64,000 nucleotides of DNA. It comes from Antedon mediterranea. Taxonomy: Eukaryota; Echinodermata; Crinoidea; Comatulida; Antedonidae. A model generated the notes under the pieces. That model ran no database searches. It worked only from the letters and a program-made list of their open reading frames with translations, and was not told the origin of the DNA. Location: the NCBI RefSeq assembly GCF_964355755.1, contig NC_092678.1, positions 5,740,922 through 5,804,921 of the forward strand, in the 5' to 3' direction. Below, piece after piece: positions 35,946 through 64,000 of the stretch. Position numbers and translations under genes: made by a program. Every line of letters begins with the position of its first letter. The first letter of the stretch is position 1.

Positions 35946-36654
35946 TTTTCTTCATGAATTAACAAGTTTTGTTACAAAAATGTGATTTAAACATTCTTAG
36001 ATGACAAAAACTGGACTGTAAAAAATGTCTATAGGCCTACTGTGTATTTTCTTTATTAATTTTAAATCTATTTAGTTTTAAAAAACTGTATTGCTTGATT
36101 TGTAGGATTGTGTAAAATGAAAAAATACACTATAGTGATATGTTGTGTTGAGACAACACATAATAAACATGAAATTATGAAAATCTTTAAAAAAAAAGAA
36201 AAAAGTCTTGTTTTATAGAAAATAAGGTAAAGCCAGTTAATGATTTTGATTCTCAAACATTGCTTTATCATTCTCTGTCATGTGATCAAGCATTTGTCGT
36301 TCAATTGTGCTTTGTAAAGTAAAAAGTCTTTGTTCTTGAAAGAAAAGTTTTTAAATGTACTGCAAAACAATGATAATTGTTCTTTGTAAAGTAACAATTT
36401 TTAGTCTACAGCTCACTATATGGCCTTTTTTGTTCTCGTTTTTTAAATGTACTATAAAACAGTTTTTGAATATTATACGAACATTGATAAGTAAATGATC
36501 CATACCATCCTGGCAACCATCATTTCAAAATTATGTCTCACAGTCACAAATATAGATCGATACTTGCAAAAACTAAAAGGTCACCAATCTGCACAATTAA
36601 TGAAGCATGTTTACGTATGTACTTCTCCAAAACCTTCAAATACCAGAATAGTTT

Positions 36655-36725
36655 TTACCAACCCCCCGAAACCAGTTCTAGAAGTACCGGGATGGTGTCC
36701 GGCGGGGGATAGTTTCACCATGTAG
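36655..36725. repeat. GC-rich block in the left arm
   Basis: An unusually GC-rich 70-bp island (CCAACCCCCCGAAACCAG through GTCCGGCGGGGGATAG) in AT-rich surroundings, conserved almost unchanged at 63478-63545. Its origin is unknown; a short frame across it (36495-36725) has no recognisable homology. Confidence 0.5.
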
Positions 36726-37344
36726 TTTAAGTTCTCATTTATTTGTTTTTAGTCAAACCGTTCATTTACTTAAAATACAAGAGCAATCAGAGGTTGCATA
36801 GCTTACAACAGACAAACAAAAAACAAATAAATATCGCAGAAATATAGAAAATAGAGGTAATCATGTGAAAAACACATATTCGAGTTTGATTTAAAAAAAT
36901 AAAATGAAAAGAATTATAATATTATTGCACACAGACACTGTCAAACAAAAAAGAAATTGCTCCAATATTCACCACAGCAAAACGTTTTTCTATTAAAACC
37001 ATGCAATTGGTTTCAAATCCTCTGACTATCTATAAAGTAATGTTTGATACATTTTGTCGACAAGGTTTATATGTCACAGTATTCAACTAGAAAGTATTCA
37101 ATCGATTACATATAGCTCGTTGGCGGAGGTAAATTAAATTCAAACCTATAAAATGTCAGTTATTGGTAGCCTAGCCTACATCATTCGCTGTTGCGCTTCT
37201 TGCTTGTCCATTAGCCAATCACCACTTTTCTATGGCTGTCCGTGCTTGTGCATTAGCCAATTGCCAATCGCCAATATCATTTTTCTTAGCCTGTTGTTTA
37301 TTACAAAAGTTTTAATCCAGTAAATTATTTTGATTCAGTCCTCT

Positions 37345-37610
37345 ACCTTTTGGATTTAGCGCTTGATTTACTTCCCAGACTGTTGTCCATTTCTCCATCA
37401 TTCTATGTTGGATGTACCCGTTCTTCTCTTCATAACTCTTCTGTAACTATGCTGCCCTTCTGTAACTATGCTGCCCAAATAGTTATAGGTCTTTCTGTTT
37501 TTATATTTTACCTCTTTTTCTTCTTTTGCCGTTGTCATTCATTTTGCCTACCTTTTGTCCTCACTTCTTGCTAGGTGACCTGTCCAAACATATCTGCATT
37601 TCATCTCCAA
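37345..37610 (-). pseudogene. LINE reverse-transcriptase fragment, left-arm copy
   Basis: The minus strand encodes VKYKNRKTYNYLGSIVTEG, matching the 'TYNYLGSIVTEDG' block of non-LTR reverse transcriptases, then a tandem duplication of GGGCAGCATAGTTACAGAA and a stop after TSNIE. It is preceded by a GHLAR-like remnant of the C-terminal block, so the fragment is rearranged. The mirror copy is at 62475-62720. Confidence 0.6.
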
Positions 37611-37974
37611 ATTTTTTTTTTTTTCGCGAATGTCTTATTCCATGTGCAGTAACAAGTTGTTATCACTTGGAAATTCTTTGATTTAATAAGTAGGGAAATA
37701 AATTTCAATGCTTTCTATATTTAGAGCTACATTAGTCGGACCATCAAAATGAATACAGGCGCATGGTCATGAAATGGTTCCTAACACTAACTTAAACACT
37801 TAATATACCTAGCTATGAGCATGCTCCTGTCTTTTTGACACTCCGAAAAAATGTCTCTGTCAGCATTGTTTATCTGTATAAATTATTATATAATTATTTA
37901 AACTATATAAGCGGAACACCACAGGCAGAACAAATTTAAACAGCCTGGTGATATACTGAAAATGTATTAATTAA

Positions 37975-38060
37975 TTTGAAACGATAAGATAAGAAAATCT
38001 GTGAGAATGAGAAAAAGTCGACTTTTCTCATTCTCACTGATTTCGTCATCTTATCGTTGC
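37975..38060. repeat. Hairpin centred on GTCGAC, left arm
   Basis: Inverted repeat with arms of about 35 nt (ACGATAAGATAAGAAAATC ... GTGAGAATGAGAAAA and their complement) around GTCGAC. The same hairpin is at 62003-62088 in the right arm. It could extrude as a small cruciform. No function is evident. Confidence 0.8.
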
Positions 38061-38999
38061 CAATTATATATATATCATATACAGTATAATTTTTTATTTT
38101 AATCCTTTTGCCTTCCGTTAAGGTACATTTTTTCCCCCCAATTCTTTTAGATAATATGGGAGAAAAAAAAATCGTGATAGCGTAAAAAGTACTGGCCCCT
38201 AGTATGTTAAATAGATTTAAAGAATACATTTTTTTTCTGCCTTTACCCTGTCTAGATATTGCCTGGCATATCCATAGACACTTACAGGTATGCCAAACAT
38301 TGTTTTTAATAGCATCATCGTTTAGTATGATGTTTTTTTTTTACAGCACCTTCTGTGGTTGCTTACAAAAATTATCCCAGTAAGAGTAGTTACTAATTTT
38401 AAAAAAGTACTTCAAAAAAAGTACTACCCTATGTTTGTTTTTTCAAGTAGCCTGACATCCCCTCAGTGAGGGCACTGTCTTTTATTAAACCAATGGCAAC
38501 GGTCCCCTCCTCTTTTCATAATCTCGCTAATTTTTCTTATCTAATACTATCAATTCTTTCACCCTTTAGTTACTGCATCGGTAACTAAAGTCTTCCAGTT
38601 CCCCTTGGCCTTAATGCCATCATAATGTTCTTTCAATGTTCATTATATCTGTTTTTCTTATCCAATACAATCAATTCAATCGATGACAATGGTCCCTTCT
38701 GGTTTCCCCTGGCCTTAATGCCATCATAATGTTCTTTAAATGTTCATTTGTCTTTTTAAAAAGTAACATTAGTCTCCGGTACTAAACTAAAATTGCTATA
38801 ACATGTAAAATGACAGTAGTAAATAGAAACAAACATTTTTGAAAAGTTTCTGTGAAATTTCGACACTTTTTAAAGCTTTTGGAGTTTAAAAAGAAAGTAT
38901 TTAATTTGAAAACAAAACATTTTATGTAAGTTAGTTAAAAAAAATATTTGTTGCTCCTACAGTATTGTTATTCTTGAACTGGAAAATGCAATTGATGTA
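38061..38999. other. Left-arm unique stretch with a local duplication
   Basis: The block CTTAATGCCATCATAATGTT occurs twice (near 38611 and 38713) with shared flanks, giving an approximately 100-bp direct duplication also present in the right arm (61345-61475). An open frame on the minus strand (37936-38229; mirrored at 61752-61946) has no recognisable domain. Confidence 0.6.
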
Positions 39000-41900
39000 A
39001 TGTTCATTGGAAGACCACTTTATTTTAAAAAACACTGCTTCAAAATTGTATTCAAAATATTATACAATGTTGTATTGAATTCATTAAAATCAACACTTTA
39101 TAAACTTAGAGGTTTGTGAAGAAACAAAGCTACTGTCCAGATAAATGTCATATCATAAACATTTATGGTTTAATAAAATGAAAAAATTTATTTATTTAAA
39201 GGTAGTGTAATTTGCATTTTTCTCAGGTAGTAAACTAAAAAAAGTTAATAGAAGATGCAAAATCATAGATTCAAAGGAAAATAACTTATAAATAAAATGT
39301 GAAAATTTAAAAAAAATTGTATTAGAAAAAAAATGCTATACTAAAATATGTGTAAACTTACTGTTGTAAGAATTTAAGTTATATGGTCCGAAAGTTGAAA
39401 AGTAACACCATTTAAGTTGTTCAAACATACCAAAATCTAATTTTTTTACAAATTTGGGAAAACATTTATTCATAAATTTGAAACATTTAAAAAAACAAAA
39501 TAATTGTTGGTAAAAGGTTGAATGACTTGCTTTTTATGGTTTAATCAAATCAAATTTAAATTCAAAGGTTGTGTAATATACATTTTTTTCGAGTAATAAA
39601 CTAAAAAAGTTGGTAAAAGGTTGAATCGCTTGCTTTTTATGGTTTAATAAAATTGAACAAATTTAAATTCAAAGGTTGTGTAATATACATTTTTTTCGGG
39701 CAATAAACTCAAAAAAGTTGGTAGAAGATGAAAAAAAATTAGTTATAAATAAAATATTTTGGATATTTTTTAATTTTATAAGAAATAAAATGCTATACTA
39801 AAATAATGTAAACTTACTGTTGTAAGAATTTGAATAAGGCATGCTTAAGTTATAAGGTCAGAAATTTGAAAGATACAATATTGTTCAAATATATCAAAAT
39901 CTAATTTTGTTTACTAATTTTGAAGGGAAAAAAAATGAATTTTTTACAGTAGAATGGAATTTTGCCTTTTAAACTATAAAATAAAGAAATGGAGATATTA
40001 TTTTTATGCAAAATATATTTGTGTTGAATATCTGTAAATACAGGCATTCTAAGTTAATGGGGTTTGTGGTCAAAAAGTTTAAATATTTATAAAAACAAAA
40101 GAATTAATTTTTGGTAAATGGTTGAATATTTTATCACTTGTATTTACATCCTACAATTTACAGTACAGTTGAATTTTTCAAATATACTAAAGTTTTGTTG
40201 TTTTTTTATTAAGAAATCATTCATAACAACAAAATTCATTTTTAATTCATTTTTTTTACATTTAAAATTGTTTTCCAAGCAGGAATTTTATTTAATTAAT
40301 ACAGTAGTTGAATATTATCATTTATATTTTAATTGGTAAACATTTAATTTTCTCATATACAGTACTTTGTAGTACTTTATTCAGGCAGTATAATAATTAC
40401 ATTTTCAAATATACTAAGTACTAAAACTAATTTTTGTTTTGCATTTCTGTTGAATGCATGCATAATAAATATTTATTTACATTTACAATTTGTCTCATGC
40501 AGGTAGTTTACAGAAATCTAAATTTGTAATAATTTTGAAAAAAAAAAGTAATTCTATAGACTGTATTTATTTATTTATATTGTAAAATTTTTTATATATC
40601 TTTTTCAGGCAGGTTTAATCATTTTAATTAAAATAGCAAAATACCATTTAAATATTTTTCTTACATATTTTTTAGGCATGTACAGTAGTATTACATTTTC
40701 CAAATATCAAAATCTTTCGTTTCTTAATTTATATATTTAATTTTCTTATTTTTTACCAAATAGGCCTAAAAAAATGTGAATGTAAAAATTAAGGTAAAAG
40801 ATTGAATATCATATCATTATTCAATTTAATTTATTTCCGCAGTATAATAACATACAGGATAAATACAATGAAGTAATCATGTGGGGAGTCATATATATAA
40901 TAATAACAATTTTTACTAATAGTTTTACTAATGTTACATACTTTATTTCAATACAATACTTGAATAATTTACTTTTTTTTTAATAGTTATACATTTCTAT
41001 TGGCATCTTCTATTGTATATTTTATCATTTATATTTATTTTTTCAGGCAGGCCAAGTAATTAAGTAGTTAAATCGTTCAAATCTCATTTATTAACACATT
41101 TTGAAAACTAATATCTTGCTTGAAATACATGCATTTTTATAGACTTACAATTTCCTTTTCCAGTTTAATGATATTTAAATATACCAAAATGTCATTTTTT
41201 TTAATGATTTTATGTAAAAATGCATTTCTAGGTGGTAGAATGTAGCCTACATACTAATTTGCATGTACAAATTGATGAAAACAATTAAATATTATATCAT
41301 TTATATTCATTTTTTAAACGTTTTTCCTACATAATTACTTACAACTGCTTATTTTCAGTACCAAAATCTCATTTTTTTAACCAATTTTAATCTGTTCAAT
41401 ATAAATATATTTTTATATTAGTTATATTCTTATTTCATATGACTGATAAAATTTTAGTTAAATATTATATCATTTGTTATTAATTTTTTGAATCTTTTTA
41501 TATTCATAACATTTTTTCAGGTAGGCTAAAGTTACATTTACTGTACCAAAATCTCATTTCATTTTACTTATTTAGAAAAACAATATGCATTTCTATAGGC
41601 TTCTGTTGAATATTATATAATTTGTTCTTATTTAAAAAATATTTTTCTAACGTGCTTACATTTTTACAGGCATGTAGTATAATAGTTGAACAAAAATCTC
41701 ACTTGTTCTACACATTTTTGAAAACAAATATGAATTTGTATAGACTGTTGATGAATATGATATTTTCTTTCTTATTTTTATAAGTTTTTCTAAAATTCTT
41801 TTTTTCAGGCAAGCTAAAAATAGTTAAACATTAAATTCACTGTACCAAAATCTCAAATAATTTTCCAAATTTTTTTTTAGGGATCGTCTCCTGGTGTGCT

Positions 41901-42327
41901 GATCTGGTAGGTGTAGTCCGTGGAAGGCCTAATTCGAATTTTCTCAGTGGCCAGGTTAAATACAACTAAACAAATATGCATTTGTTTTCTATAGATATTA
42001 AATATATTTATATATTTCCAATATTCTTATTTCATTCATATTTTAAATGTTATAACTTATAATGTTATACCAAAATCTTAATATTGACAAAGAAAATTCT
42101 ATATTGAATATTGTATCATTTACTGTATATTATTTTTTTTAATGTTTTTCTTGCATACAACTTTTTTTCAGACATGCTAAATTGTTCAAATATACTTAAA
42201 TCTCATTTATTAACACATTTTGAAAACAAATACTTTATGTATTTCTATAGGCTTCTGTTGAATATTATATCGTGTTTAATTTTTTGGTTATCCGCACTTG
42301 GCGGATAACCCCTTGTTATTGTCAGGA

Positions 42328-42366
<39 letters not shown>

Positions 42367-44650
42367 CTATGTTATTCTTCTTTCTTTCCCAAAATTTTGT
42401 GTCACGTGTATCTCAAATTCTGATCAACATTACATCGTATAACTTTGTCAGAAGATTTACCTCTATCTGTAGAAGTGCAGGACAGCTCGTTTTTTTTCTT
42501 TAGAGTCGCGCAGCGTAAGCTACGCGCGATTTTATGAATTTTGCGTATTTAACATAGACTAAAAACCAAAAGTCATTTTGTAATGACACTTGGTGAACAT
42601 TTAAGTCATATCAAGGGCAAACTTTCTATGGATTAAAAATGGCATGTTTGACATAAAGTTACGCGCGCACGCGCGTTTAAAATTTCAAATTGCGAAATAT
42701 CCATTTCTAATCAACTTTCTACGCGTTTCAGGGCATTTTGAGCATTTCAAAAATTCCCACGCGTGCGCATTTTTTTTACGCGCGCGTGCGCACGTAGCGC
42801 AAAAACATCTTTTTTTTGCTTGATTTTTGTTTTTTCAGCCTTTTCTAGTAAATTTACCAATTTTCAATCAATTTCGACTTAAAATTACGTCATACGAGCA
42901 CGTAGAATTCAACAATTTGCGCGCGTTTTTGAAGAAAAAGTTGAAAAATTCGTCAAAATTATGCCTTTTTTAAAACAGTCATAGATTGTAAACTACGAGG
43001 TGAACTTCTTTTAAATTACACATTCTGGAAGTTGATGATTTGTAGATATCGAATCATGCATCGATATGGCTAACAAGACATAGTGACGTCATCGTATGGC
43101 CACTCAAATATAAAATATAGGATTTTTGTCTCTTTCGTCATAGCTCATCACATTTAATAGAGCGCATCTCCACTTATCCGAATTCCATTTCCCCCCATTT
43201 TTTTATATTGTCTATGCCAATCAATTATCTTTCGCATAATCTACCATTTTTTAAATTGTGATGACGTCATCATGTCCAAAAGCGTCAATAACTTGGGTCC
43301 CTTATTTTCACCTATTCTGCACTGTATGTAGTACGTATACAGAATATAGTGTATACCGTATATACTTTGAGGTGACACAAAATAGAGAGCGCACTAACAT
43401 TTTTTCAATGGCATAATCGTTTTTCTGCGCGCAATATTCTAACGTATGACGTGCTGCGGATAACCTAACTCGTCCGTAGTGACGAGTTCAAATCTAGTGT
43501 TGTTTAATGTTTTTCTTACATAATTACTTTTGTTTGCAGGCAGGTAGTAAAATAGTTAAATTGTTCAAAATTTACCAAAATCTAACTTGTTTTACAAAGA
43601 ATGCATTTCTATATTCATTTTTAAAAATATTTCATTACATACTTATATTTTCTTTTTTTCAGGCAAACTTAGTTTAATAGTTAAATTGTTCAAATTTACT
43701 GAACTAAAATCTCATTTTTTACAAATTTCATTTGTATTTTATATTTTTCTAACTGTTCGTTCAAGCATGTCAACAAACAAATTTGCTTGTTGGACCAATC
43801 AAGTTTCTGCATTTATATTCATTAAAAAAAAATTTTTGTTAACATACATTTTTTTCAGGCAATTTAATTGTTCTAATATATTGTACCAAAATCTCAATTT
43901 TGTTAACAAATATGCATTTCTACAAAAATTGGTTAATTTTCATTTTTTTAATTTTCTTCTTACATAGTCACATTACAGAATTTTTTTTTTCTTACATATT
44001 TTTTCAGGCAGTATAATAATTAACTTGTTCAATTATACTGTACACTGAAATCTCAATTTTCAAAACAAATACTCATTTCTAAAGAAATAGGTTATTTTTT
44101 AATGTTTTTTTTTACATTTACACTTTTTTTTCAGGTTAATAGTTAATATGTCGAAATATAATAAAATCATACAAATTTTTTTTTTTTAACATACACTTTC
44201 TTCAGGTTTAATTGTTCATTATATACCAAAATCTTATTTTTTTACAAAATAAAAAATGAATTTTTAAGCTGTAGTTGTATCATTTTCATTTTTGTTGGAT
44301 AATTAATAAAAGTTATTTCTAGGCGGTATAAACTAGCCTACATAATAACACAAATGTGCATGTGAAAGTTGTATATATATATTTCATTTTTTAAATGTTT
44401 TTCTTACATACTTACAATTTTCTTTTCCAGTTTAATGATATTTAAATATATCAACATATTATTTTTTTTAATTTTATGTACAAATGCATTTCTAGGTGGT
44501 AGAATCTAGCCTAAATAATAACACAAATTTTCATGTAAAAACTGATGAAAAAAATTGAATATTATGTTTTTTTAAATATAGTACTTATATTTTCAGGTCA
44601 GTAGTATACACATAAAAATTGAAGATTATATTATTTATATTAATTTTCTG
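39000..44650 (+). repeat. Degenerate ~150-bp tandem repeats, left arm
   Basis: A diverged unit recurs throughout. Its landmarks, in order, are TTTTTTCAGGCAG, ATAGTTAAATTGTTCAAAT, ACCAAAATCTCATTTTTT, GCATTTCTATAGGCTTCTGT, GAATATTATATCATTTATAT and TTTTTCTTACATA. Spacing is roughly 100-200 bp, with many truncated copies. Each unit contains a pyrimidine tract plus CAG, resembling a 3' splice site. One non-repeat island (41879-41955, GTCTCCTGGTGTGCTGATCT) interrupts the repeat in both arms. No coding sequence is present. Confidence 0.75.
42281..43500 (+). mobile_element. Helitron-like insertion present only in the left arm
   Basis: About 1.22 kb absent from the mirror site near 57850. The left end has a perfect hairpin GGTTATCCGC-ACTTG-GCGGATAACC (42286-42310) followed by a ~40-nt poly-T. 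The right end repeats GCGGATAACC (43456-43465), then has hairpin ACTCGTC-CGTAGT-GACGAGT (43468-43487) and, six bases later, CTAG followed by T. A hairpin shortly before CTRR-T is the signature of a Helitron 3' terminus. The interior is non-coding with CpG-rich ACGCGCGTGCGCACGTAGCG. A TGTTTAAT is found on both sides, which Helitrons do not normally produce, so the class is uncertain. Confidence 0.55.
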
Positions 44651-45640
44651 ATGTATAACAATCTAAACTCAGTTGCCAAAAAACCAAATCTGTAAAGATT
44701 TATGGAATAATAGTAATTAGATAGGAACAGTCTATGGATAATAGTTTTGGTGTTTGAAAATATAATTACAAAGGCCGCACCATTCATTTTTATGTAGTAG
44801 GCTGAAAAGGCAAATTTTTTCTTTTAACATTTGGTAACATAATTGTAGCATGCATCACATGAATGTGAAATGAATTAGCATAAAGTTTGATCACTTGAGC
44901 AAAACAATTACAATTTCTAATTTGTAATTAATTTATGGTTTTGAACTTCTCTTTTAAGAAATGTTATTGTTACATTTGATTAGCTTGTATTGAGTTTTAC
45001 ACATAGTGACCGACCACATATTATAACAAAATTACAGCTAGCAACATGATATAAAATTGTAAAAAAAAAATGTAAGAGTTACAAATGTACAATATTTGTG
45101 GGAAAAAACAGAATTGTAGAGTTCAGTATGTGTACTTAAAAACAAAGAGTAGAACCAGGGAAGAGTAGTAACATTACATGTATACAAAAAAACAAACTTT
45201 AGGAAAAGTTACAAATATTCACACTGCCAGACTCGGAACTTTTTATTTTTAAGAAATTCCAAACCGCCCGGTGATATACTGAAAGGTAATTAAATCATTT
45301 TAAAACAATAAAGATGACAAATCTGTTTACAAAAAATTTTGTGAGAGATACCTCATTAATTGTCAGTATTTTACTCTTTAATCATTATGACCGATGGATT
45401 TTCATATAAGATCATTTTGGAGACTAAGGGTTAATTCTTTTATTAGTATTTTTGTCCTATGTTTTACAATACAAACAAATCGTTTCATTGAAAGTTATTT
45501 AACCAATTTAGATGCCAAACAAAATGTAAAAACTATTTTAATGATGAAAATATAGATTGGGTAACATGGAAAAGAAATATAAAAAATCGTACATTTTTTC
45601 CAAATAAACAATTATGGTATTGAAGCCATTTTTAAGAATA
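44651..45640. other. Left-arm spacer between the ~150-bp repeats and the short arrays
   Basis: Non-repetitive AT-rich DNA mirrored at 55560-56690. Relative to the right arm it lacks about 128 bp near 45610, with short AACA-type homology at the breakpoint. No gene is visible. Confidence 0.65.
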
Positions 45641-45649
45641 TATTGATAT

Positions 45650-45955
45650 CTTTAGTGTTTATTATCACCAGTGTTTACTATCGCAAGTGTTTACTATCGC
45701 AAGTGTTTACTATCGCAAGTGTTTATTATCGCCAGTGTTTATTATCGCCAGTGTTTATTAACTCCCAGTGTTTATTATCGCCAGTGTTTATTATCGCCAG
45801 TGTTTATTATCGCCAGTGTTTATTAACTCCCAGTGTTTATTATCGCCAGTGTTTATTATCGCCAGTGTTTTATTATCGCCAATGTTAAATTTTTAGTATT
45901 TATTATCACAAGTATTTATTATACCCAGTGTTTATTATCGCCAGTGTTTATTATC
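45650..45955 (+). repeat. 16-bp array, left arm
   Basis: About 19 copies of GTGTTTATTATCGCCA with variants (TATCGCAA; a TTAACTCCCA variant seen only in this arm). Mirror array at 55262-55560. Confidence 0.9.
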
Positions 45956-45960
45956 GTAAT

Positions 45961-46960
45961 ACTGTGAATGACATACTGTATTGTGGTGTTTCTATAAGAA
46001 AATTAAGTATAAATGATATTGGAAAACATTAATTTTCATTAGTTAATCAACGCATGATTTTCAAAAAATATTGGATGAACTTTTCATATCAAGGTTTATT
46101 ACTTATTAGTGTTACTCATCGGAAATTTAAAAACAAGATTTACAATCTAAAGAGAGTGTCTATATCTTAGTTTGATTTTCAGACTGACTTTTGAATAGTA
46201 AAACTTTTTTGACAATTGAAAATTAAAATCCATTTCTTGTGCGCATCGATAAAAACTAGCCTTCATACAGTAATAACAAAAATGTGCATGTAAAAAATGT
46301 TTATTGAAAGTGTTTATCGCAAGCATTTGTTATCGCAAGCGTTATATTACAAGCGTTTATTATATTTCAAGCGTTTATTATATTACAAGCGTTTATTATA
46401 TTACAAGCGTTTATTATATTACAAGCGTCTATATCGCAAGTGTGATCGAAACAGTAATGTCTGCAGATTGGATAATGGGTGTATGTCCTGCTTAACTGGC
46501 TCAGCCTATATATTGTGCCAGTTCTGCAGTACATATCATTCCAAAACCTGAGCTGCACTGACGAGATCTAATAAGATCGAAACAATACTGTCTGCAGATA
46601 GAATATATATACATTTTTATTATATACTACAAAACAAAAATCAGATTAAATTTGTTTTTAACAAGATCACCACTTTTTGTCAGAATGGGTTTAGACTCGT
46701 AACCGTGTGTCGATGGGCTAAATAGTAGTATTTAATCTTTATCCTGAAGCAGCAGCAGTGATTATGATTGCATTCAATTATTTTTCAAATGATATTCAGT
46801 GATTGCAAAATAATGAATGTTTTAATAATACTGTTGAATCCTCTCTTGGTTTTGTGTTATGTTATAATGTCAGAAGAAATTGCTAAGTGGTGGTACATAC
46901 TGCGTAATTATTTTTTTTAAGGTAACGCGTACCAGTGTAAGCTTTTAAATGTATTGCTTC
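45961..46960. other. Left-arm segment with a small 20-bp array
   Basis: Mostly non-repetitive, with about six CAAGCGTTTATTATATTA units at 46315-46440 and an island CTGCAGATTGGATAATGGGT (46460). Mirrored at 54300-55260. No gene. Confidence 0.7.
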
Positions 46961-46974
46961 TCAGTGGAAATGTA

Positions 46975-47590
46975 TCCGTTTATTATCAGCGCTTATCGTC
47001 GCCAGTGTTTATTATCGTCGCAAGCACTTATCGTCGCCAGCACTTATCGTCGCCAGTGTTTATTATCAGCGCTTATAGTCGCCAGCACTGATCGTTGCCA
47101 GCACTTATTATTATTATACTTCAAGCGTTTATTATACTTCAAGCGTTTATTATACTTCAGGCGTTTATTATACTTCAAGCGTTTATTATACTTCAAGCGT
47201 TTATTATACTTCAAGCGCCAGTGTCTGCTATCGTCGCCAGCATTTATCGCCGCCAGTGTTTATTATCAGCGCTTATCATCGCCAGCACTTATCGTCGGCA
47301 GTGTTTATTATCAGCACTTATCGTCGCCAGTGTTTATTATCAGCGCTTATCGTCAAGCGTTTAATTATACCTCAAGCGTTTAATTATACCTTAAGCGTTT
47401 ATCTATACCTCAAGCGGTTTACTATACCTCAAGCGGTTTACTGTACCTCAAGCGGTTTACTGTACCTCAAGCGTTTGTTATACTTCAAGCGTTTGTTATA
47501 CTTCAAGCGTTTGTTATACTTCAAGCGTTTGTTATACTTCAAGCGTTTGTTATACTTCAAGCGTTTGTTATACTTCAAGCGTTTGTTATA
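46975..47590 (+). repeat. Composite 18-bp arrays, left arm
   Basis: Interleaved units: TTCAAGCGTTTATTATAC (47110-47215), TATCGTCGCCAGTGTTTA types (46980-47105 and 47220-47355), CTCAAGCGGTTTACTGTAC (about 47410-47465) and TTCAAGCGTTTGTTATAC (47465-47598). All share a core close to AGCGTTTAT. Mirrored at 53512-54240. Confidence 0.85.
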
Positions 47591-47593
47591 CTT

Positions 47594-47724
47594 CAAGCGT
47601 CCAATTTCAGGTAGCGCACGTCCAATTTCAGGTAGCGCACGTCCAATTTCAGGTAGCGCACGTCCAATTTCAGGTAGCGCACGTCCAATTTCAGGTAGAG
47701 CACGTCCAATTTCAGGTAGAGCAC
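47594..47724 (+). repeat. 21-bp array, left arm (6 copies)
   Basis: Unit CGTCCAATTTCAGGTAGCGCA, with the last two copies changed to GTAGAGCAC. The period is a multiple of three, giving repeated PISGSAR- and LPEIGRA-type frames on the two strands; these are not genes. Confidence 0.9.
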
Positions 47725-47734
47725 CAGACACTTG

Positions 47735-48540
47735 CGGCGATATATCGGTATTACTTAGGCGATATATCGGTATTACTTAGGCGATATATCGGTATGACTT
47801 AGGCGATATATCGGTATGACTTAGGCGATATATCGGTATGACTTAGGCGATATAGCGGTATGACTTAGGCGATATAGCGGTATGACTTAGGCGATATAGC
47901 GGTATGACTTAGGCGATATAGCGGTATGACTTAGGCGATATAGCGGTATGACTTAGGCGATACAGCGGTATGACTTAGGCGATACAGCGGTATGACTTAG
48001 GCGATACAGCGGTATGACTTAGGCGATACAGCGGTATGACTTAGGCGATACAGCGGTATGACTTAGGCGATACAGCGGTATGACTTAGGCGATACAGCGG
48101 TATGACTTAGGCGATACAGCGGTATGACTTAGGCGATACAGCGGTATGACTTAGGCGATACAGCGGTATGACTTAGGCGATATAGCGGTATGACACCTGT
48201 GGCGAAATAATAACAATATAACAGACACTTGCGGCGAAATAATAGTGGTATGACATAGGCGATATAGCGGTATGACTTAGGCGATATAGCGGTATTACTT
48301 AGGCGATATAGCGGTATTACTTAGGCGATATAGCGGTATTACTTAGGCGATATAGCGGTATGACACTTGTGGCGAAATAATATCAATATAACAGATACTT
48401 GCGGCGAAATAATAGCGGTATGACATAGGCGATATAGCGATATGACTTAGGCGATATAGCGGTATGACTTAGGCGATATAGCGGTATGACTTAGGCGATA
48501 TAGCGGTATGACTTAGGCAATATAGCGGTATGACACTTGC
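47735..48540 (+). repeat. 22-bp array, left arm
   Basis: About 21 consecutive copies of AGGCGATATAGCGGTATGACTT (47736-48190) and then two shorter blocks, separated by spacers of the type CACTTGTGGCGAAATAAT. Ten adjacent copies (about 47949-48170) carry GATACAGCGG, a variant absent from the right arm. Confidence 0.92.
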
Positions 48541-48845: not shown

Positions 48846-48849
48846 TTAT

Positions 48850-51345: not shown

Positions 51346-51632
51346 ACGCTTGAAGTATTGATAAACGCTTGAAGTATTGATAAACGCTTGAAGTATTGAT
51401 AAACGCTTGAAGTATCGATAAACGCTTGAAGTATCGATAAACGCTTGAAGTATCGATAAACGCTTGAAGTATCGATAAACGCTTGAAGTATCGATAAACG
51501 CTTGAAGTATCGATAAACGCTTGAAGTATCGATAAACGCTTGAAGTATCGATAAACGCTTGAAGTATCGATAAACGCTTGAAGTATCGATAAACGCTTGA
51601 AGTATCGATAAACGCTTGAAGTATCGATAAAC
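51346..51632 (-). repeat. 19-bp array A, right arm (about 15 copies)
   Basis: Reverse complement of array A (AAACGCTTGAAGTATCGAT), only 15 copies. The three copies nearest the core have ATTGAT in place of ATCGAT. Confidence 0.95.
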
Positions 51633-52400
51633 GCTGGCGACGACAATAAACGCTGGCGACGACAATAAACGCTGGCGACGACAATAAACGCTGGCGACGA
51701 CAATAAACGCTGGCGACGACAATAAACGATGGCGACGACAATAAACGCTGGCGACGACAATAAACGATGGCGACGACAATAAACGATGGCGACGACAATA
51801 AACGATGGCGACGACAATAAACGATGGCGACGACAATAAACGATGGCGACGACAATAAACGATGGCGACGACAATAAACGATGGCGACGACAATAAACGA
51901 TGGCGACGACAATAAACGATGGCGACGACAATAAACGATGGCGACGACAATAAACGATGGCGACGACAATAAACGATGGCGACGACAATAAACGATGGCG
52001 ACGACAATAAACGATGGCGACGACAATAAACGATGGCGACGACAATAAACGATGGCGACGACAATAAACGATGGCGACGACAATAAACGATGGCGACGAC
52101 AATAAACGATGGCGACGACAATAAACGATGGCGACGACAATAAACGATGGCGACGACAATAAACGATGGCGACGGTAAGCGCTGATAATAAACAATGGCG
52201 ACGATAAGTGCTGATAAGCGCTAATAATAAACACTGTAAATGCTGGCGACGAAGCGGTGATAAAAAACACTGACGACGATAAGTGGTGATAATAGACACT
52301 GGCGACGATAATAGACACTAGCGACGATAATAGGCACTGGCGACGATAACAGACACTGGCGACGATAATAGACACTGGCAATAATAAACACTTGCAATAT
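51633..52400 (-). repeat. 19-bp array B, right arm (about 29 regular copies)
   Basis: Reverse complement of array B (GGCGACGACAATAAACGAT), about 29 copies up to 52173, mostly the ACGATGG variant that is in the minority in the left arm; looser units follow. Open frames of 278-377 codons on the minus strand are repeat artefacts. Confidence 0.95.
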
Positions 52401-52729
52401 AATGAACACTTTCAATATTAAACACTTGCATTAATCAATATTTGCAATAATAAACTCTTGGAACACATACTGTAAAATGACTAATAATACCCTGACAGTC
52501 ATACCAAGACGCTTACATGGATACATTTACACTGAGAAGCAATACATTGAGAAACTTACACTGGTACGCGTTACCTGATACGCTTATGCTACTGTTAACC
52601 ATTGAAAAAGTACTGTTGCTATTATTTTGCCGCAAGTGTCTTTTATTGTTATTATTTCGTTGGAAGTGTCTGTTTATTGTTATTATTTCGCCGCAAGTGT
52701 CTGTTTATTGTTATTATTTCCCCGCAAGT

Positions 52730-53352
52730 GTCATACCGCTATATTGCCTAAGTCATACCGCTATATCGCCTAAGTCATACCGCTATATCGCCTAAGTCAT
52801 ACCGCTATATCGCCTAAGTCATATCGCTATATCGCCTATGTCATACCGCTATTATTTCGCCGCAAGTATCTGTTATATTGATATTATTTCGCCACAAGTG
52901 TCATACCGCTATATCGCCTAAGTAATACCGCTATATCGCCTAAGTAATACCGCTATATCGCCTAAGTCATACCGCTATATCGCCTATGTCATACCACTAT
53001 TATTTCGCCGCAAGTGTCTGTTATATTGTTATTATTTCGCCACAGGTGTCATACCGCTATATCGCCTAAGTCATACCGCTATATCGCCTAAGTCATACCG
53101 CTATATCGCCTAAGTCATACCGCTATATCGCCTAAGTCATACCGCTATATCGCCTAAGTCATACCGCTATATCGCCTAAGTCATACCGCTATATCGCCTA
53201 AGTCATACCGCTATATCGCCTAAGTCATACCGCTATATCGCCTAAGTCATACCGCTATATCGCCTAAGTCATACCGCTATATCGCCTAAGTCATACCGAT
53301 ATATCGCCTAAGTCATACCGATATATCGCCTAAGTAATACCGATATATCGCC
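52730..53352 (-). repeat. 22-bp array, right arm
   Basis: The mirror of 47735-48540 with about 13-14 copies in the main block (53050-53350) and none of the GATACAGCGG variant. Confidence 0.92.
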
Positions 53353-53365
53353 GCAAGTGTCTGGT

Positions 53366-53511
53366 GCTCTACCTGAAATTGGACGTGCGCTACCTGAAAT
53401 TGGACGTGCGCTACCTGAAATTGGACGTGCGCTACCTGAAATTGGACGTGCGCTACCTGAAATTGGACGTGCGCTACCTGAAATTGGACGTGCGCTACCT
53501 GAAATTGGACG
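53366..53511 (-). repeat. 21-bp array, right arm (7 copies)
   Basis: Seven copies of the reverse-complement 21-bp unit, more homogeneous than the left-arm array. Confidence 0.9.
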
Positions 53512-54240
53512 CTTGAAGTATAACAAACGCTTGAAGTATAACAAACGCTTGAAGTATAACAAACGCTTGAAGTATAACAAACGCTTGAAGTATAACAAAC
53601 GCTTGAAGTATAACAAACGCTTGAAGTATAACAAACGCTTGAAGTACAGTATAACAAACGCTTGAGGTACAGTATAGTCAAACGCTTGAGGTACAGTAAA
53701 CCGCTTGAGGTATAGTAAACCGCTTGAGGTATAGTAAACCGCTTGAGGTATAGTAAACCGCTTGAGGTATAATTAAACGCTTGAGGTATAATTAAACGCT
53801 TGACAATAAGCGCTGATAATAAACACTGGCGATGATAAGTGCTGATAATAAACACTGCCGACGATAAGTGCTGGCGATGATAAGCGCTGATAATAAACAC
53901 TGGCGGCGATAAATGCTGGCGACGATAGCAGACAGTGGCGCTTGAAGTATAATAAACGCTTGAAGTATAATAAACGCTTGAAGTATAATAAACGCCTGAA
54001 GTATAATAAACGCTTGAAGTATAATAAACGCTTGAAGTATAATAAACGCTTGAAGTATAATAAACGCTTGAAGTATAATAATAATAAGTGCTGGCAACGA
54101 TCAGTGCTGGCGACTATAAGCGCTGATAATAAACACTGGCGACGATAAGTGCTGGCGACGATAAGTGCTTGCGACGATAATAAACACTGGCGACGATAAG
54201 CGCTGATAATAACACTGGCGACGATAAGCGCTGATAATAA
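53512..54240 (-). repeat. Composite 18-bp arrays, right arm
   Basis: Reverse complement of the left composite (46975-47590). It has one more TTCAAGCGTTTATTATAC-type stretch (eight units at 53940-54080 against six on the left) and eight TTGTTATAC-type units near 53512-53660. Confidence 0.85.
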
Positions 54241-55261
54241 ACGGATACATTTCCACTGAGAAGCAATACATTTAAAAGCTTACACTGGTACGCGTTACCT
54301 TAAAAAAAATAATTACGCAGTATGTACCACCACTTAGCAATTTCTTCTGACATTATAACATAACACAAAACCAAGAGAGGATTCAACAGTATTATTAAAA
54401 CATTCATTATTTTGCAATCACTGAATATCATTTGAAAAATAATTGAATGCAATCATAATCACTGCTGCTGCTTCAGGATAAAGATTAAATACTACTATTT
54501 AGCCCATCGACACACGGTTACGAGTCTAAACCCATTCTGACAAAAAGTGGTGATCTTGTTAAAAACAAATTTAATCTGATTTTTGTTTTGTAGTATATAA
54601 TAAAAATGTATATATATTCTATCTGCAGACAGTATTGTTTCGATCTTATTAGATCTCGTCAGTGCAGCTCAGGTTTTGGAATGATATGTACTGCAGAACT
54701 GGCACAATATATAGGCTGAGCCAGTTAAGCAGGACATACACCCATTATCCAATCTGCAGACATTACTGTTTCGATCACACTTGCGATATAGACGCTTGTA
54801 ATATAATAAACGCTTGTAATATAATAAACGCTTGTAATATAATAAACGCTTGAAATATAATAAACGCTTGTAATATAACGCTTGCGATAACAAATGCTTG
54901 CGATAAACACTTTCAATAAACATTTTTTACATGCACATTTTTGTTATTACTGTATGAAGGCTAGTTTTTATCGATGCGCACAAGAAATGGATTTTAATTT
55001 TCAATTGTCAAAATAGTTTTACTATTCAAAAGTCAGTCTGAAAATCAAACTAAGATATAGACACTCTCTTTAGATTGTAAATCTTGTTTTTAAATTTCCG
55101 ATGAGTAACACTAATAAGTAATAAACCTTGATATGAAAAGTTCATCCAATATTTTTTGAAAATCATGCGTTGATTAACTAATGAAAATTAATGTTTTCCA
55201 ATATCATTTATACTTAATTTTCTTATAGAAACACCACACTACAGTATGTCATTCACAGTAT
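54241..55261. other. Right-arm segment mirrored to 45961-46960
   Basis: Non-repetitive DNA plus a small CAAGCGTTTATTATATTA array (54790-54900). No gene is supported. Confidence 0.7.
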
Positions 55262-55560
55262 TACGATAATAAACACTGGCGATAATAAACACTGGGTATA
55301 ATAAATACTTGTGATAATAAATACTAAAAATTTAACATTGGCGATAATAAAACACTGGCGATAATAAACACTGGCGATAATAAACACTGGCGATAATAAA
55401 CACTGGCGATAATAAACACTGGCGATAATAAACACTGGCGATAATAAACACTGGCGATAATAAACACTGGCGATAATAAACACTGGCGATAATAAACACT
55501 TGCGATAGTAAACACTTGCGATAGTAAACACTGGTGATAATAAACACTAAAGATATCAAT
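55262..55560 (-). repeat. 16-bp array, right arm
   Basis: About 18 copies of the 16-bp unit (TGGCGATAATAAACAC on the plus strand), more uniform than the left array. Confidence 0.9.
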
Positions 55561-56689
55561 ATATTCTTAAAAATGGCTTCAATACCATATTTGTTAAAAC
55601 AATGTTGTTTTATATGATCCCATAAAATATTTGCTGCAGTACATTTACTGTACTAATGCTCTAGAAAATTAATTCACATTAACAAATCTTCTAGGAAAAT
55701 GTTATATAATAAACTCATGTGTTTATTTGGAAAAAATGTACGATTTTTTATATTTCTTTTCCATGTTACCCAATCTATATTTTCATCATTAAAATAGTTT
55801 TTACATTTTGTTTGGCATCTAAATTGGTTAAATAACTTTCAATGAAACGATTTGTTTGTATTGTAAAACATAGGACAAAAATACTAATAAAAGAATTAAC
55901 CCTTAGTCTCCAAAATGATCTTATATGAAAATCCATCGGTCATAATGATTAAAGAGTAAAATACTGACAATTAATGAGGTATCTCTCACAAAATTTTTTG
56001 TAAACAGATTTGTCATCTTTATTGTTTTAAAATGATTTAATTACCTTTCAGTAAATCACCGGGCGGTTTGGAATTTCTTAAAAATAAAAAGTTCCGAGTC
56101 TGGCAGTGTGAATATTTGTAACTTTTCCTAAAGTTTGTTTTTTTGTATACATGTAATGTTACTACTCTTCCCTGGTTCTACTCTTTGTTTTTAAGTACAC
56201 ATACTGAACTCTACAATTCTGTTTTTTCCCACAAATATTGTACATTTGTAACTCTTACATTTTATATCATGTTGCTAGCTGTAATTTTGTTATAATATGT
56301 GGTCGGTCACTATGTGTAAAACTCAATACAAGCTAATCAAATGTAACAATAACATTTCTTAAAAGAGAAGTTCAAAACCATAAATTAATTACAAATTAGA
56401 AATTGTAATTGTTTTGCTCAAGTGATCAAACTTTATGCTAATTCATTTCACATTCATGTGATGCATGCTACAATTATGTTACCAAATGTTAAAAGAAAAA
56501 ATTTGCCTTTTCAGCCTACTACATAAAAATGAATGGTGCGGCCTTTGTAATTATATTTTCAAACACCAAAACTATTATCCATAGACTGTTCCCATCTTAA
56601 TTACTATTATTCCATAAATCTTTACAGATTTGGTTGTTTGGCAACTGAGTTTAGATTGTTATACATCAGAAAATTAATATAAATAATAT

Positions 56690-59600
56690 AATCTTCAATT
56701 TTTATGTGTATACTACTGACCTGAAAATATAAGTACTGTATTTTAAAAAACATAATATTCAATTTTTTTCATCAGTTTTTACATGCAAATTTGTGTTATT
56801 ATTTAGGCTAGATTCTACCACCTAGAAATGCATTTGTACATAAAATTAAAAAAAATAATATGTTGATATATTTAAATATCATTAAACTGGAAAAGAAAAT
56901 TGTAAGTATGTAAGAAAAACATTTAAAAAAATGAAATATATATATATATTTATATTCAATCTTTTACGACAACTTTCACATGCACATTTGTGTTATTATG
57001 TAGGCTAGTTTATACCGCCTAGAAATGACTTTTTATTAATTATCAAAAAAAATGAAAATGATACAACCGGCTTAAAAATTCATTTTTTAATTTGTAAAAA
57101 AATAAGATTTTGGTATATAATGAACAATTAAACCTGAAGAAAGTGTATGTTAAAAAATAAAAATTTGTATGATTTTATTATATTTGGAAATATGAACTAT
57201 TAACCTGAAAAAAAAGTGTAAATGTAAAAAAAACCATTAAAAAATAACCGATTTCTTTAGAAATGAGTATTTGTTTTGAAAATTGAGATTTCAGTGTACA
57301 GTATAATTGAACAAGTTAATTATTATACTGCCTGAAAAAATATGTAAGAAAAAAAAAATTCTGTAATGTGACTATGTAAGAAGAAAATTAAGAAAATTAA
57401 AAAAATGAAAATTAACCAATTTTTGTAGAAATGCATATTTGTTTCCAAAATTGAGATTTTAGTACAATATATTAGAAAAATTAAATTGCCTGAAAAAAAT
57501 GTATGTTAAAAAAAACATTTTTAAAAATTAATATAAATACAGAAATTTTATTGGTCCAAAAATGAAATTTGTTTGTTGACATGCTTGAACGAAGTCATAG
57601 GTATACACAAATACAAATAAATTTGTAAAAAATGAGATTTTAGTACAGTAAATTTGAACAATTTAACTATTAAACTAAGTTTGCCTGAAAAAAAGAAAAT
57701 ATAAGTATGTAATGAAATATTTTTAAAAATGAATATAGAAATGCATACTTTGTAAAACAAGTTAGATTTTGGTACAGTACATTTTGTACAATTTAACTAT
57801 TGTACTACCTGCCTGCAAACAAAAGTAATTATGTAAGAAAAACATTTTAAAAAATTAAACACGATAGAATATTCAACAGAAGCCTATAGAAATACATAAA
57901 GTATTTGTTTTCAAAATGTGTTAATAAATGAGATTTAAGTATATTTGAACAATTTAGCATGTTTGAAAAAAAAGTTGTATTCAAGAAAAACATTTAAAAA
58001 AATAATATATAGTAAATGATACAATATTCAATATAGAATTTAAAATATGAATGAAATAAGAATATTGGAAATATATAAATATATTTAATATCTATAGAAA
58101 ACAAATGCATATTTGTTTTGTTGTATTTATCCTGGCCACTGAGAAAATTCGAATTAGGCCTTCCACGGACTACACCTACCAGATCAGCACACCAGGAGAC
58201 GATCCCTAAAAAAAAATTGGAAAATTAATTGGAGATTTTGGTACAGTGAATTTAATGTTGAATGTATTACCTATAGGCCTCTCCTTGCCTAGAAAAAATG
58301 ATTTTGGTACAGTAAATTTAATTAATATTTTTAGCTTGCCTGAAAAAAAGAATTTTAGACAAAAATATCATATTCATCAACAGTCTATACAAATTCATAT
58401 TTGTTTTCAAAAATGTGTAGAACAAGTGAGATTTTTGTTCAACTATTATACTACATGCCTGTAAAAATGTAAGCACGTTAGAAAAATATTTTTAAAATAA
58501 GAACAAATTATATAATATTCAACAGAAGCCTATAGAAATGCATATTGTTTTTCTAAATAAGTAAAATGAAATGAGATTTTAGTACAGTAAATTTAACTTA
58601 GCCTACCTGAAAAAATGTTATGAATATAAAAAGATTCAAAAAATTAATAACAAATGATATAACATTTAACTAACATTTTATCAGTCATATGAAATAAGAA
58701 TATAACTAATATAAAAATATATTTATATTGAACGGATTAAAATTGGTAAAAAAAAATGAGATTTTGGTACTGAAAATAAGCAGTTGTAAGTAATATGTAG
58801 GAAAAACGTTTAAAAAATGAATATAAATGATATAATATTTAATTGTTTTCATCAATTTGTACATGCAAATTAGTATGTAGGCTAGATTCTACCACCTAGA
58901 AATGCATTTTTACATAAAATCATTAAAAAAAATGACATTTTGGTATATTTAAAAATCATTAAACTGGAAAAGAAAATTGTAAGTCTATAAAAATGCATGT
59001 ATTTCAAGCAAGATATTAGTTTTCAAAATGTGTTAATAAATGAGATTGAACGATTTAACTACTTAATTACTTGGCCTGCCTGAAAAAATAAATATAAATG
59101 ATATAATACACAATAGAAGAAGCCTATAGAAATGCATAACTATTTTAAAAAAAAGTAAATTATTCAAGTATTGTATTTAAAAAAAGTATGTAACATTAGT
59201 AAAACTATTAGTAAAAATTGTTATTATTATATATATGACTCCCCACATGATTACTTCATTGTATTTATCCTGTATGTTATTATACTGTGGAAATAAATTA
59301 AATTGAATAATGATATGATATTCAATCTTTTACCTTAATTTTTACTTTCACATTTTTTAGGCCTATTTGGTAAAAAATAAGAAAATTAAATATATAAATT
59401 AAGGAAAAAAAAGATTTTGATATTTGAAAAATGTAAAAATGCCTAAAAAATATGTAAGAAAAATATTTAAATGGTATTTTTCTATATTAATTAAAATGAT
59501 TAAACCTGCCTGAAAAAGAATTATAAGTATGTATATAAAATATTTTACAATATAAATAAATAAATACAAACATTTTTTTTTTCAAAATTATTACAAATTT

Positions 59601-60980
59601 AGATTTCTGTAAACTACCTGCATGAGACAAATTGTAAATGTAGAAAAATTAAATGTTTATTATGCAGGATAAATTCTTTTAAATGAAATAATATTCAATA
59701 GATATGCAAAAAAAAAATTTGTTTTAGTACACTGTAGTATAAGAAAATTAAATGTTTACAAATTAAAATATAAATGATAATATTCAACTACTGTTTGGAA
59801 AACAATTTTAAATGTAAAAAAAAATGAATTAAAAATGAATTTTATTGTTGCATTTCTTAATAAAAAAAACAACAAAACTTTGGTATATTTGAAAAATTCA
59901 ACAAGTGATATAATATTCAACCATTTACCAAAAATTAATTCTTTTGTTTTTATAAATATTTAAAATTTTTGACCACAAACCCCATTAACTTAGAATGCCT
60001 GTATTTACAGATATTCAACACAAATATATTTTGCATAAAAATAATACAATTGACTTAGATATCTCCATTTCTTTATTTTGAGTTTAAAAGGCAAAATTCC
60101 ATTTTTATAAATAATCACATTCTACTGTCAAAAATTCAATTTTTTTTCCTTCAAAATTAGTAAACAAAATTAGATTTTGATATATTTGAACAATTTAAAT
60201 ATTGTATCTTTCAAATTTCTGACCTTATAACTTAAGCATGCCTTATTCAAATTCTTACAACAGTAAGTTTACATATATTTTAGTAAAGCATTTTATTTCT
60301 AATAAAATTTAAAAATGTCCAAAATATTTTATTTATAACTAATTTTTTTTAATCGACTTTTTTTAGTTTATTACCCGAAAAAAATGTATATTACACAACC
60401 TTTGAATTTAAATTTGTTCAATTTGATTAAACCAAGCGATTCAACCTTTTACCAACAATTATTTTGTTTTTATAAATGTTTCAACTTTCTGACCACAAAC
60501 CTTATTAACTTAGAATGCCTGAGTTTACAGATATTTAACACAAATATATTTTGCATAAAAAATTAACTGTGATTTCTTTATTTTTTTTCGAGTTTTACTT
60601 ATTTCTAGTTTAAACGACAACATTTCAATTTTAGGAATAATCATCACATTCTACTGTCAAGAAAAATTTTTTCCCAAATTTGTAAAAAAATTAGATTTTG
60701 GTATATTTGAACAACTTAAATGGTGTTACTTTTCAACTTTCGGACCATATAACTTAAGCATGCCTTATTCAAATTTAGTCAAATTCTTACAACAGTAAGT
60801 TTACACATATTTTAGTATAGCATATATAGCATATAAAGTTATTTTCCTTTGAATCTATGATTTTGCATCTTCTTTTAATTTTTTTAGTTTACTACCTGAG
60901 AAAAATGCAAATTACACTACCTTTGAATTTAAATTTTTTCATTTTATTAAACCATAAATGTTTATGATAAAAGACATTTA
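56690..60980 (-). repeat. Degenerate ~150-bp tandem repeats, right arm
   Basis: Reverse complement of the 39000-44650 block, with the same landmarks and the same island at 58133-58205 but without the 1.2-kb insertion. Homopolymer lengths differ often between arms. Confidence 0.75.
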
Positions 60981-62002
60981 TCTGGACAGTAGCTTTGTTT
61001 CTTCACAAACCTCTAAGTTCATAAAGTGTTGATTTTAATGAATTCAATACAACATTGTATAATATTTTGAATACAATTTTGAAGCAGTGTTTTTTAAAAT
61101 AAAGTGGTCTTCCAATGAACATTACATCAATACTGTAGGAGCAACAAATATTTTTTTAAACTAGCTCCAAAGCTTTAAAAAGTGTCGAAATTTCACAGAA
61201 ACTTTTCAAAAATATTTTACTGTTTTTATAAAAACAACGTTTTTGATGTTTCTATGTACTACTGTGATTTTACATGTTATACCAATTTTAGTTTAGTACC
61301 GGAGACTAATGTTACTTTTTAAAAAGACAAATGAACATTTAAAAGAACATTATGATGGCATTAAGGCCAGGGGAAACCGGAAGGGACCATTGTCATCGAT
61401 TGTATTGGATAAGAAAAACAGATATAATGAACATTGAAAGAACATTATGATGGCATTAAGGCCAAGGGGAACTGGAAGACTTTAGTTACCGATGCAGTAA
61501 CTAAAGGGTGAAAGAATTGATAGTATTAGATAAGAAAAATTAGCGAGATTATGAAAAGAGGAGGGGACCGTTGCCATTGGTTTAATAAAAGACAGTGCCC
61601 TCACTGAGGGGATGTCAGGCTACTTGAAAAAACAAACATAGGGTAGTACTTTTTTTGAAGTACTTTTTTAAAATTAGTAACTACTCTTACTGGGATAATT
61701 TTTGTAAGCAACCACAGAGGGTGCTGTAAAAAAAAAACATCATACTAAACGATGATGCTATTAAAAACAATGTTTGGCATAGGTGTCTATGGATATGCCA
61801 GGCAATATCTAGACAGGGCAAAGGCAGAAAAAAAAATGTATTCTTTAAATCTATTTAACATACTAGGGGCCAGTACTTTTTACGCTATCACGATTTTTTT
61901 TCTCCCATATTATCTAAAAGAATTGGGGGGAAAAAATTTACCTTAACGGAAGGCAAAAGGATTAAAATAAAAAATTATACTGTATATGATATATATAAAA
62001 TT
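60981..62002. other. Right-arm segment mirrored to 38061-38999
   Basis: Contains the duplicated CTTAATGCCATCATAATGTT block in reverse complement and a short unrecognised open frame (61752-61946). Nothing else is visible. Confidence 0.6.
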
Positions 62003-62088
62003 CGCAACGATAAGATGACGAAATCAGTGAGAATGAGAAAAGTCGACTTTTTCTCATTCTCACAGATTTTCTTATCTTATCGTTTCAA
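62003..62088. repeat. Hairpin centred on GTCGAC, right arm
   Basis: Mirror copy of the 37975-38060 hairpin, with minor substitutions and the same GTCGAC centre. Confidence 0.8.
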
Positions 62089-62474
62089 ATTAATTAATAC
62101 ATTTTCAGTATATCACCAGGCTGTTTAGAATTTGTTCTGCCTGTGGTGTTCCGCTTATATAGTTTAAATAATTATATAATAATTTATACAGATAAACAAT
62201 GCTGACAGAGACATTTTTTCGGAGTGTCAAAAAGACAGGAGCATGCTCATAGCTAGGTATATTAAGTGTTTCAGTTAGTGTTAGGAACCATTTCATGACC
62301 ATGCACCTGTATTCATTTTGCTGGTCCGACTAATGTAGCTCTAAATATAGAAAGCATTGAAATGTATTTCCCTACTTATTAAATCAAAGAATTTCCAAGT
62401 GATAACAACTTGTTACTGCACATGGAATAAAACATACGCGAAAAAAAAAACAAACAATTGGAGATGAAATGCAG

Positions 62475-62720
62475 ATATGTTTGTACAGGTCACCTAGCAA
62501 GAAGTGAGGACAAAAGGTAGGCAAAATGAATGACAACGGCAAAAGAAGAAAAAGAGGTAAAATATAAAAACAGAAAGACCTATAACTATTTGGGCAGCAT
62601 AGTTACAGAAGGGCAGCATAGTTACAGAAGAGTTATGAAGAGAAGAACGGGTACATCCAACATAGAATGATGGAGAAATGGACAACAGTCTGGGAAGTAA
62701 ATCAAGCGCTAAATCCAAAA
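62475..62720 (+). pseudogene. LINE reverse-transcriptase fragment, right-arm copy
   Basis: Plus-strand GHLARSEDKR, then VKYKNRKTYNYLGSIVTEG and stop codons, as in the left arm (37345-37610). Its presence in both arms means the LINE had inserted and decayed before the arms separated. Confidence 0.6.
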
Positions 62721-62921
62721 GGTAGAGGACTGAATCAAAATAATTTACTGGAATAAAACTTTGTAATAAACAACAGGCTAAGATTGGCGATTGGCAATTG
62801 GCTAATGCACAAGCACGGACAGTCAAACAGTGAATGATGTAGGTTAGGCTACCAATAACTGTGACATTTTATAGGTTTGAATTTAATTTACCTCCGCCAA
62901 CGAGCTATATGTAATCGATTG

Positions 62922-63063
62922 TGTGTTTGTTTGTTAGTGTAGTGAAAATAGCCTAAATCACACACAGCATTAAGACAACAATTTAAAACATTTTTTTCTT
63001 TTTTCAGTGACATCTTGTGTAGGAGAATTTTACACTAGGCTGAGGTATGCACTCTCCGAGTGT
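62922..63063. other. Right-arm-specific insertion (about 142 bp)
   Basis: Between AATCGATT and CTTTCTAGTTG the right arm has about 142 bp where the left arm has only about five bases (near 37090). It contains TTTTTTCTTTTTTCAGTGAC and GTATGCACTCTCCGAGTGTC. The origin is unknown. Confidence 0.7.
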
Positions 63064-64000
63064 CTTTCTAGTTGAATACTGTGACATATAAACCTTGTCG
63101 ACAAAATGTATCAAACATTACTTTATAGATAGTCAGAGGATTTGAAACCAATTGCATGGTTTTAATAGAAAAACATTTAGCTGTGGTGAATATTGGAGCA
63201 ATTTCTTTTTTGTTTGACAGTGTCTGTGTGCAGTAATATTATAATTCTTTTCATTTTATTTTTTTAATCAAACTCGAATGTGTTTTTCACATGATTACCT
63301 CTATTTTCTATCAAACATTGGTGTTTTCCACTATAGATTTTCATTGTTTCGACGATATTTCTGCGATATTTATTTGTTTTTTGTTTGTCTGTTGTAAGCT
63401 ATGCAACCTCTGATTGCTCTTGCATTTTAAGTAAATGAACGGTTTGGCTAAAAACAAATAAATGAGAACTTAAACTACATGGTGAAACTATCCCCCGCCG
63501 GACACCATCCCGGTACTTCTAGAACTGGTTTCGGGGGGTTGGTTCAAACTATTATGGTATTTGAAGGTTTTGGGGAAGTACATACGTAAACATGCTTCAT
63601 TAATTGTGCAGATTGGTGACCTTTTAGTTTTTGCAAGTATCGATCTATATTTGTGACTGTGAGACATAATTTGGAAATGATGGTTGCCAGGATGGTAGGG
63701 ATCATTTACTTATCAAAGTTCGTATAATATTCAAAAACTGTTTTATAGTACATTTAAAAAACGAGAACAAAAAAGGCCATAGAGTGAGCTGTAGACTAAA
63801 AATTGTTACTTTACAAAGAACAATTATCATTGTTTTGCAGTACATTTAAAAACTTTTCTTTCAAGAACAAAGACTTTTTACTTTACAAAGAACAATTGAA
63901 CGACAAATGCTTGATCACATGACAGAGAATGATAAAGCAATGTTTCAGAATCAAAATCATTAACTGGCTTTACCTTATTTTCTATAAAACAAGACTTTTT

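Follow-up and report, generated by a model that had tools for sequence, protein, structure and literature searches.

An inverted mirror with a self-complementary core in a contig of Antedon mediterranea: joined haplotypes as the favoured reading

Layout of the locus

The window, by which we mean the whole stretch of 64 kb that was analysed, consists of a left part up to 36.2 kb and a mirrored part that fills the remainder. On the minus strand of the left part, a Thr/Ser-rich, mucin-like open frame (18956-20476) is built of 222-bp repeats followed by an 18-bp coding repeat; it had no Pfam match and no relative at E 1e-5 among the best 8,000 candidates scored. An exon-like frame on the same strand (130-540) includes a stretch resembling a transmembrane segment and a tail that closes with VEDTHL. 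One distant protein relative with 41% identity retains the VEDTHL tail, and comparison of this frame with the PDB gave no match. At 30873-32293 a 54-bp unit is repeated about 26 times with 96% matches and leaves several frames open on both strands, and a direct repeat of about 0.55 kb, at 12753-13329 and 15539-16069, is 4.5% diverged over 531 aligned sites.

Pfam was searched with 114 of the 156 frames of at least 60 aa, 83 of them from 1-45.9 kb and 31 from 46.3-63.7 kb, and among these no transposase or other mobile-element gene was detected. Several matches fell into array frames: Polo_box_2, COX5B and TBCC into those of the 54-bp array, and KTSC, AMG1_II, HTH_Tnp_4, VraX and SAM_KSR1_N into those of 19-bp arrays. 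Some exceeded their curated cut-offs (Polo_box_2 with 51.6 versus 31.9, KTSC with 42.4 versus 25); HTH_Tnp_4 matched over 13 residues and stayed under its own. In none of these array-frame families did a stretch pass by itself, and among the 14 rows of the rescan of the 19-bp arrays only Zein did. We read these matches as repeat noise. Further matches were a second CdaS_N match (E 0.00039) in the frames from 46.3-63.7 kb and a single weak NMD3_OB match in those from 1-45.9 kb.

Self-BLAST of the window on the minus strand gave a colinear inverted chain running from 36,200/64,000 inward to the core, with the following blocks (identities include gaps):

36200-37094 against 64000-63064, minus strand, 93.3% identity
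37099-39467 against 62921-60664, minus strand, 88.5% identity
39598-42285 against 60469-57849, minus strand, 86% identity
43506-45956 against 57846-55375, minus strand, 91.4% identity
45607-48414 against 55595-52681, minus strand, 92.3% identity
47890-49893 against 53352-51346, minus strand, 89.2% identity

The size and score of these blocks are far beyond chance, and when the left arm is aligned globally with the reverse-complemented right arm, the alignment keeps to the mirror chain throughout. The palindrome of at least 27.8 kb (36199..64000) proposed in the initial annotation is therefore present. With the exception of one-sided stretches, 36,200-50,045 is the mirror of 51,346-64,000 around a core of 1.3 kb, and the segment is divided as follows:

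36199..44723, plus strand: outer left arm, the divergent zone; its left edge is fixed by the window end
44724..50045, plus strand: inner left arm, with unique stretches that are nearly identical (measured up to 48,770) and minisatellite units of 16-31 bp; 48,770-50,045 is array
50046..51345, no strand assigned: core, clustered short inverted repeats with the orientation flip inside
51346..56592, minus strand: inner right arm, counterpart of 44724-50045, with differing copy numbers of some arrays
56593..64000, minus strand: outer right arm, counterpart of 36200-44723, continuing past the window end
42288..43505, plus strand: left-only stretch of 1,218 bp, without counterpart in the arm alignment
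55596..55723, minus strand: right-only stretch of 128 bp, without counterpart in the arm alignment

The left edge at 36199 holds in so far as the mirror starts there within the window; it is the counterpart of base 64,000 and no true boundary. Since this position only mirrors the last base, and since 10 of the outermost 499 aligned arm pairs are mismatches (about 2%), the end of the palindrome is not in the window.

The self-complementary core and the axis

Exact matches to the core word GGATTGTCAA begin at 50066, 50152, 50229 and 50340, and nine exact copies of its reverse complement are found from 50435 to 51316. With four copies before and nine reverse complements after, the orientation flip is located between 50,349 and 50,435, which agrees approximately with the axis first placed at about 50424/50425. 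The core is lopsided, as its outer ends at 50,046 and 51,345 centre on 50,695 and not on the flip. One 29-base core motif gave nine matches at up to 3 mismatches and none in 100 shuffles. The fold predicted for the core as a single strand is a long stem that branches toward its middle, a prediction that at a length of more than 1,000 bases stands without a shuffle control. Rfam returned no structured RNA at gathering scores.

Arms built of tandem repeats around such a middle raise the question of a foldback element. In FB of Drosophila and TU of the sea urchin, the inverted arms contain tandem repeats and lie around a middle domain. A transposon of this type, or in the style of Tetris or Galileo, would here extend over about 44.7-56.6 kb, with its inverted repeats built of minisatellites, and would either lie within the larger mirror or have caused a misjoin. 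The long inverted repeats are indeed there, since short tandem arrays make up the inverted arms on both sides of a middle domain, and Tetris (PMC4079207) has the same layout, with terminal inverted repeats of up to 1,735 bp that contain internal tandem repeats. The mirror, however, continues beyond the arrays, by another 8.5 kb on the left side and as far as the window end on the other. No element end was seen in the 64-kb window at which a target-site duplication could be compared, and the 114 frames scanned showed no transposase. None of seven short motifs (five from the arrays and one core motif in two forms) was counted in the window left of 36.2 kb, and the core motif had no exact match in collections of prokaryote genomes and viral contigs, neither of which is a set of animal genomes. 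We consider such a transposon quite improbable; the initial annotation found the arms to resemble foldback elements, but membership is not supported by a mirror that outruns its arrays and leaves the window. The array block may fold back like a foldback element, but we do not class it as one.

Differences between the two arms

Substitutions between the arms were counted at sites where 17 or more of 20 colinear neighbours match, with the arrays excluded. In the outer arm (36.2-44.7 kb) 109 of 5,703 clean sites differ (1.91%), compared to 3 of 1,875 (0.16%) in the unique parts of the inner arm (44,725-48,770; Fisher P = 1.5e-10). The filter removed one unique inner mismatch, at 45,612 next to the 128-bp stretch, and the raw unique inner mismatches number four. 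By segment, outer-arm divergence amounts to 1.35% (36.2-39.25 kb), 2.30% (39.25-42.3 kb) and 2.53% (43.5-44.7 kb). In a change-point scan the best position for the break was 44,682, where the log-likelihood gain was 22.1, versus a maximum of 9.5 in 500 permutations with every tenth site scanned. Exact matching of the arms starts at 44,724/56,592, and the longest exact arm match, of 803 bp, flanks the core region. The full arm alignment contains 554 mismatches, many of which lie in arrays, in the core and in badly aligned degenerate repeats (39.25-39.75 and 41.75-42.0 kb), and 89 indels; 41 of the indels are at least 10 bp long, 24 of these being in the outer arm. The outer arm at 39200-44725 contains old degenerate repeats, pairs of which are 65-97% alike among the matches listed, with the closely similar pairs spaced by about 105-173 bp.

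The sharp change between two zones could be displayed by a palindrome that is real in the chromosome and has arms 14 kb or more in length, if an old inverted duplication had been kept alike in its inner unique stretches by arm-to-arm gene conversion while the outer parts drifted by about 2%. Near-identical stretches beside divergent ones are the pattern that gene conversion is expected to leave. The tract lengths needed are on record: for the human Y palindrome P6, minimum conversion tracts average 2,068 bp and reach up to 9,023 bp (PMC3723533), and partial conversion of arms is known, as the regions undergoing conversion are described as limited in the willow W palindromes (PMC7023750). We regard this origin as a serious possibility that nevertheless falls short of being probable.

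The arrays bear on the same question. They are mirrored at 45.65-50.05 and 51.35-55.55 kb, with units of 16-31 bp in mirrored order, and a theme like AGYGTTTATTATCG is, as judged by eye, common to several of the units. Copies of eight units were counted at up to 2 substitutions. Three differ clearly between the arms, namely TTATCGATACTTCAAGCGT with 39 versus 15 copies, a 22-mer with 28 versus 20 and CGTCGCCAGCGTTTATTGT with 16 versus 31, and the other five are near-equal (25/24, 10/12, 13/16, 6/7 and 1/2). A variant of the 22-mer is present in 10 copies in the left arm and in none in the right arm. Conversion acting over 44.7-50 kb should have levelled the arrays as well, unless they re-diverged fast, yet some differ in copies and variants. 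A palindrome with arms of more than 14 kb, seeded at the hairpin core within the minisatellite block, in which conversion evens out the inner unique DNA and some minisatellites escape levelling, would accommodate this and appears to us possible but unlikely.

The left-only stretch of 1.2 kb has a G+C content of 0.35, a CpG observed/expected ratio of 1.67 (computed on 42,287-43,506) and a run of 37 T. Inspection of its flanks by eye yielded no clean target duplication. A short hairpin followed by CTAG is located near its end, which may resemble a Helitron end. Judged by eye again, the flanks of the right-only stretch of 128 bp point to DNA lost from the left arm by deletion at a short shared motif. 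The one-sided stretches and the unequal array copy numbers rule out a single molecule read twice. The long stem predicted for the core would suit a strand that was read twice through a hairpin, by a missed adapter or a strand switch; with arms that differ by 1.9% outside, with stretches of 1.2 kb and 128 bp on one side only and with some arrays unequal in copy number, we consider this very improbable and largely refuted.

Finally, the substitutions lean toward transversions. The outer-arm differences comprise 32 transitions and 77 transversions, 33 of the latter being A/T, and in stricter blocks the ratio between the arms is 22:44. Other repeats of the window gave 11:13 (27:41 for the same pair at a wider cut), 9:13 and 13:16. 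The excess of transversions is thus stronger between the arms than in these repeats, which lean likewise.

Origin of the mirror and comparison with known systems

In our judgement, the most likely reading is a fusion of haplotypes, and a real palindrome with gene conversion is its main rival. False duplication and haplotype misjoins are known in assemblies of heterozygous genomes. That two haplotypes of one locus were joined head to head by the assembly at the self-complementary core seems to us somewhat more probable than its converse. We favour it because the arms, as far as they are visible, are colinear with differences of the allelic kind (substitutions at about 2%, numerous indels and arrays resembling VNTRs), because copy numbers clearly disagree between the arms for three of the eight array units and the 22-mer variant is left-only, because the outer end is absent from the window and divergence does not rise toward the window edge, and because the axis sits in a self-complementary core flanked by arrays and the 803-bp exact match, the kind of place where an assembler would be most prone to turn round. 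The initial annotation had offered such a fusion as an alternative; it fits the allele-like differences best, but a gene-converted palindrome fits too. The sequence shows two distinct versions of the arms; we infer that they are allelic and that the two outer arms do not occur together on any one DNA molecule.

According to this proposal, each haplotype would run from outer DNA through the minisatellite block into a core nearly equal to its own reverse complement. As the haplotypes would be almost identical beside the core, the assembler could have entered along haplotype A and, forward and reverse being indistinguishable within the core, have left along the reverse complement of haplotype B. 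On this view the 1.9% of the outer arms would reflect the ordinary divergence of alleles, the steep fall to 0.16% would mark a past recombination break between haplotypes, and the array differences would be VNTR alleles.

Several observations count against the fusion of haplotypes. The near-identical zone and the core together measure 11.9 kb (44,724-56,592), which accurate reads of more than 12 kb would span, and the window contains no Ns, as is compatible with reads that span the axis of a real palindrome. A sharp drop in divergence beside the axis is also expected from arm-to-arm conversion, and five of the eight array units are near-equal in both arms. The colinear arms with their allele-like divergence, indels and VNTR differences are as expected of joined haplotypes, but the transversion-rich spectrum is atypical, 32:77 being below the transition to transversion ratio expected for alleles. 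Among the matches listed in a literature search, no description of a head-to-head misjoin through a self-complementary core was found. On the other side, a real palindrome has to contend with the absence of its outer end from the window, and a gene family context was not found.

If haplotypes were fused, the contig would contain a false inverted duplication and genes of the mirrored part might enter gene counts twice; in heterozygous assemblies, minisatellite cores that are self-complementary would in that case deserve a check. If the palindrome is real, it would provide a system for measuring the distance from the axis to which arm-to-arm conversion extends.

Among known systems, foldback elements such as FB, TU and Tetris share with this locus the middle domain and inverted arms in which tandem repeats are contained. 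The inverted repeats of Tetris, up to 1,735 bp long, compare with arms of the mirror that measure about 14 kb or more, and no ends or target duplication of such a transposon were seen in the window, nor a transposase in the frames scanned. The human Y palindrome P6 and the willow W palindromes are alike in their long inverted arms and, in willow, in near-identical stretches next to divergent ones; they are sex-chromosome palindromes with arm-to-arm gene conversion, whereas no gene family was found in the mirror described here, whose outer limits are not within the window. Closest to our favoured reading are false duplications and haplotype misjoins, which likewise present two colinear copies with allele-like divergence, the difference being that the copies here stand head to head through a self-complementary core.
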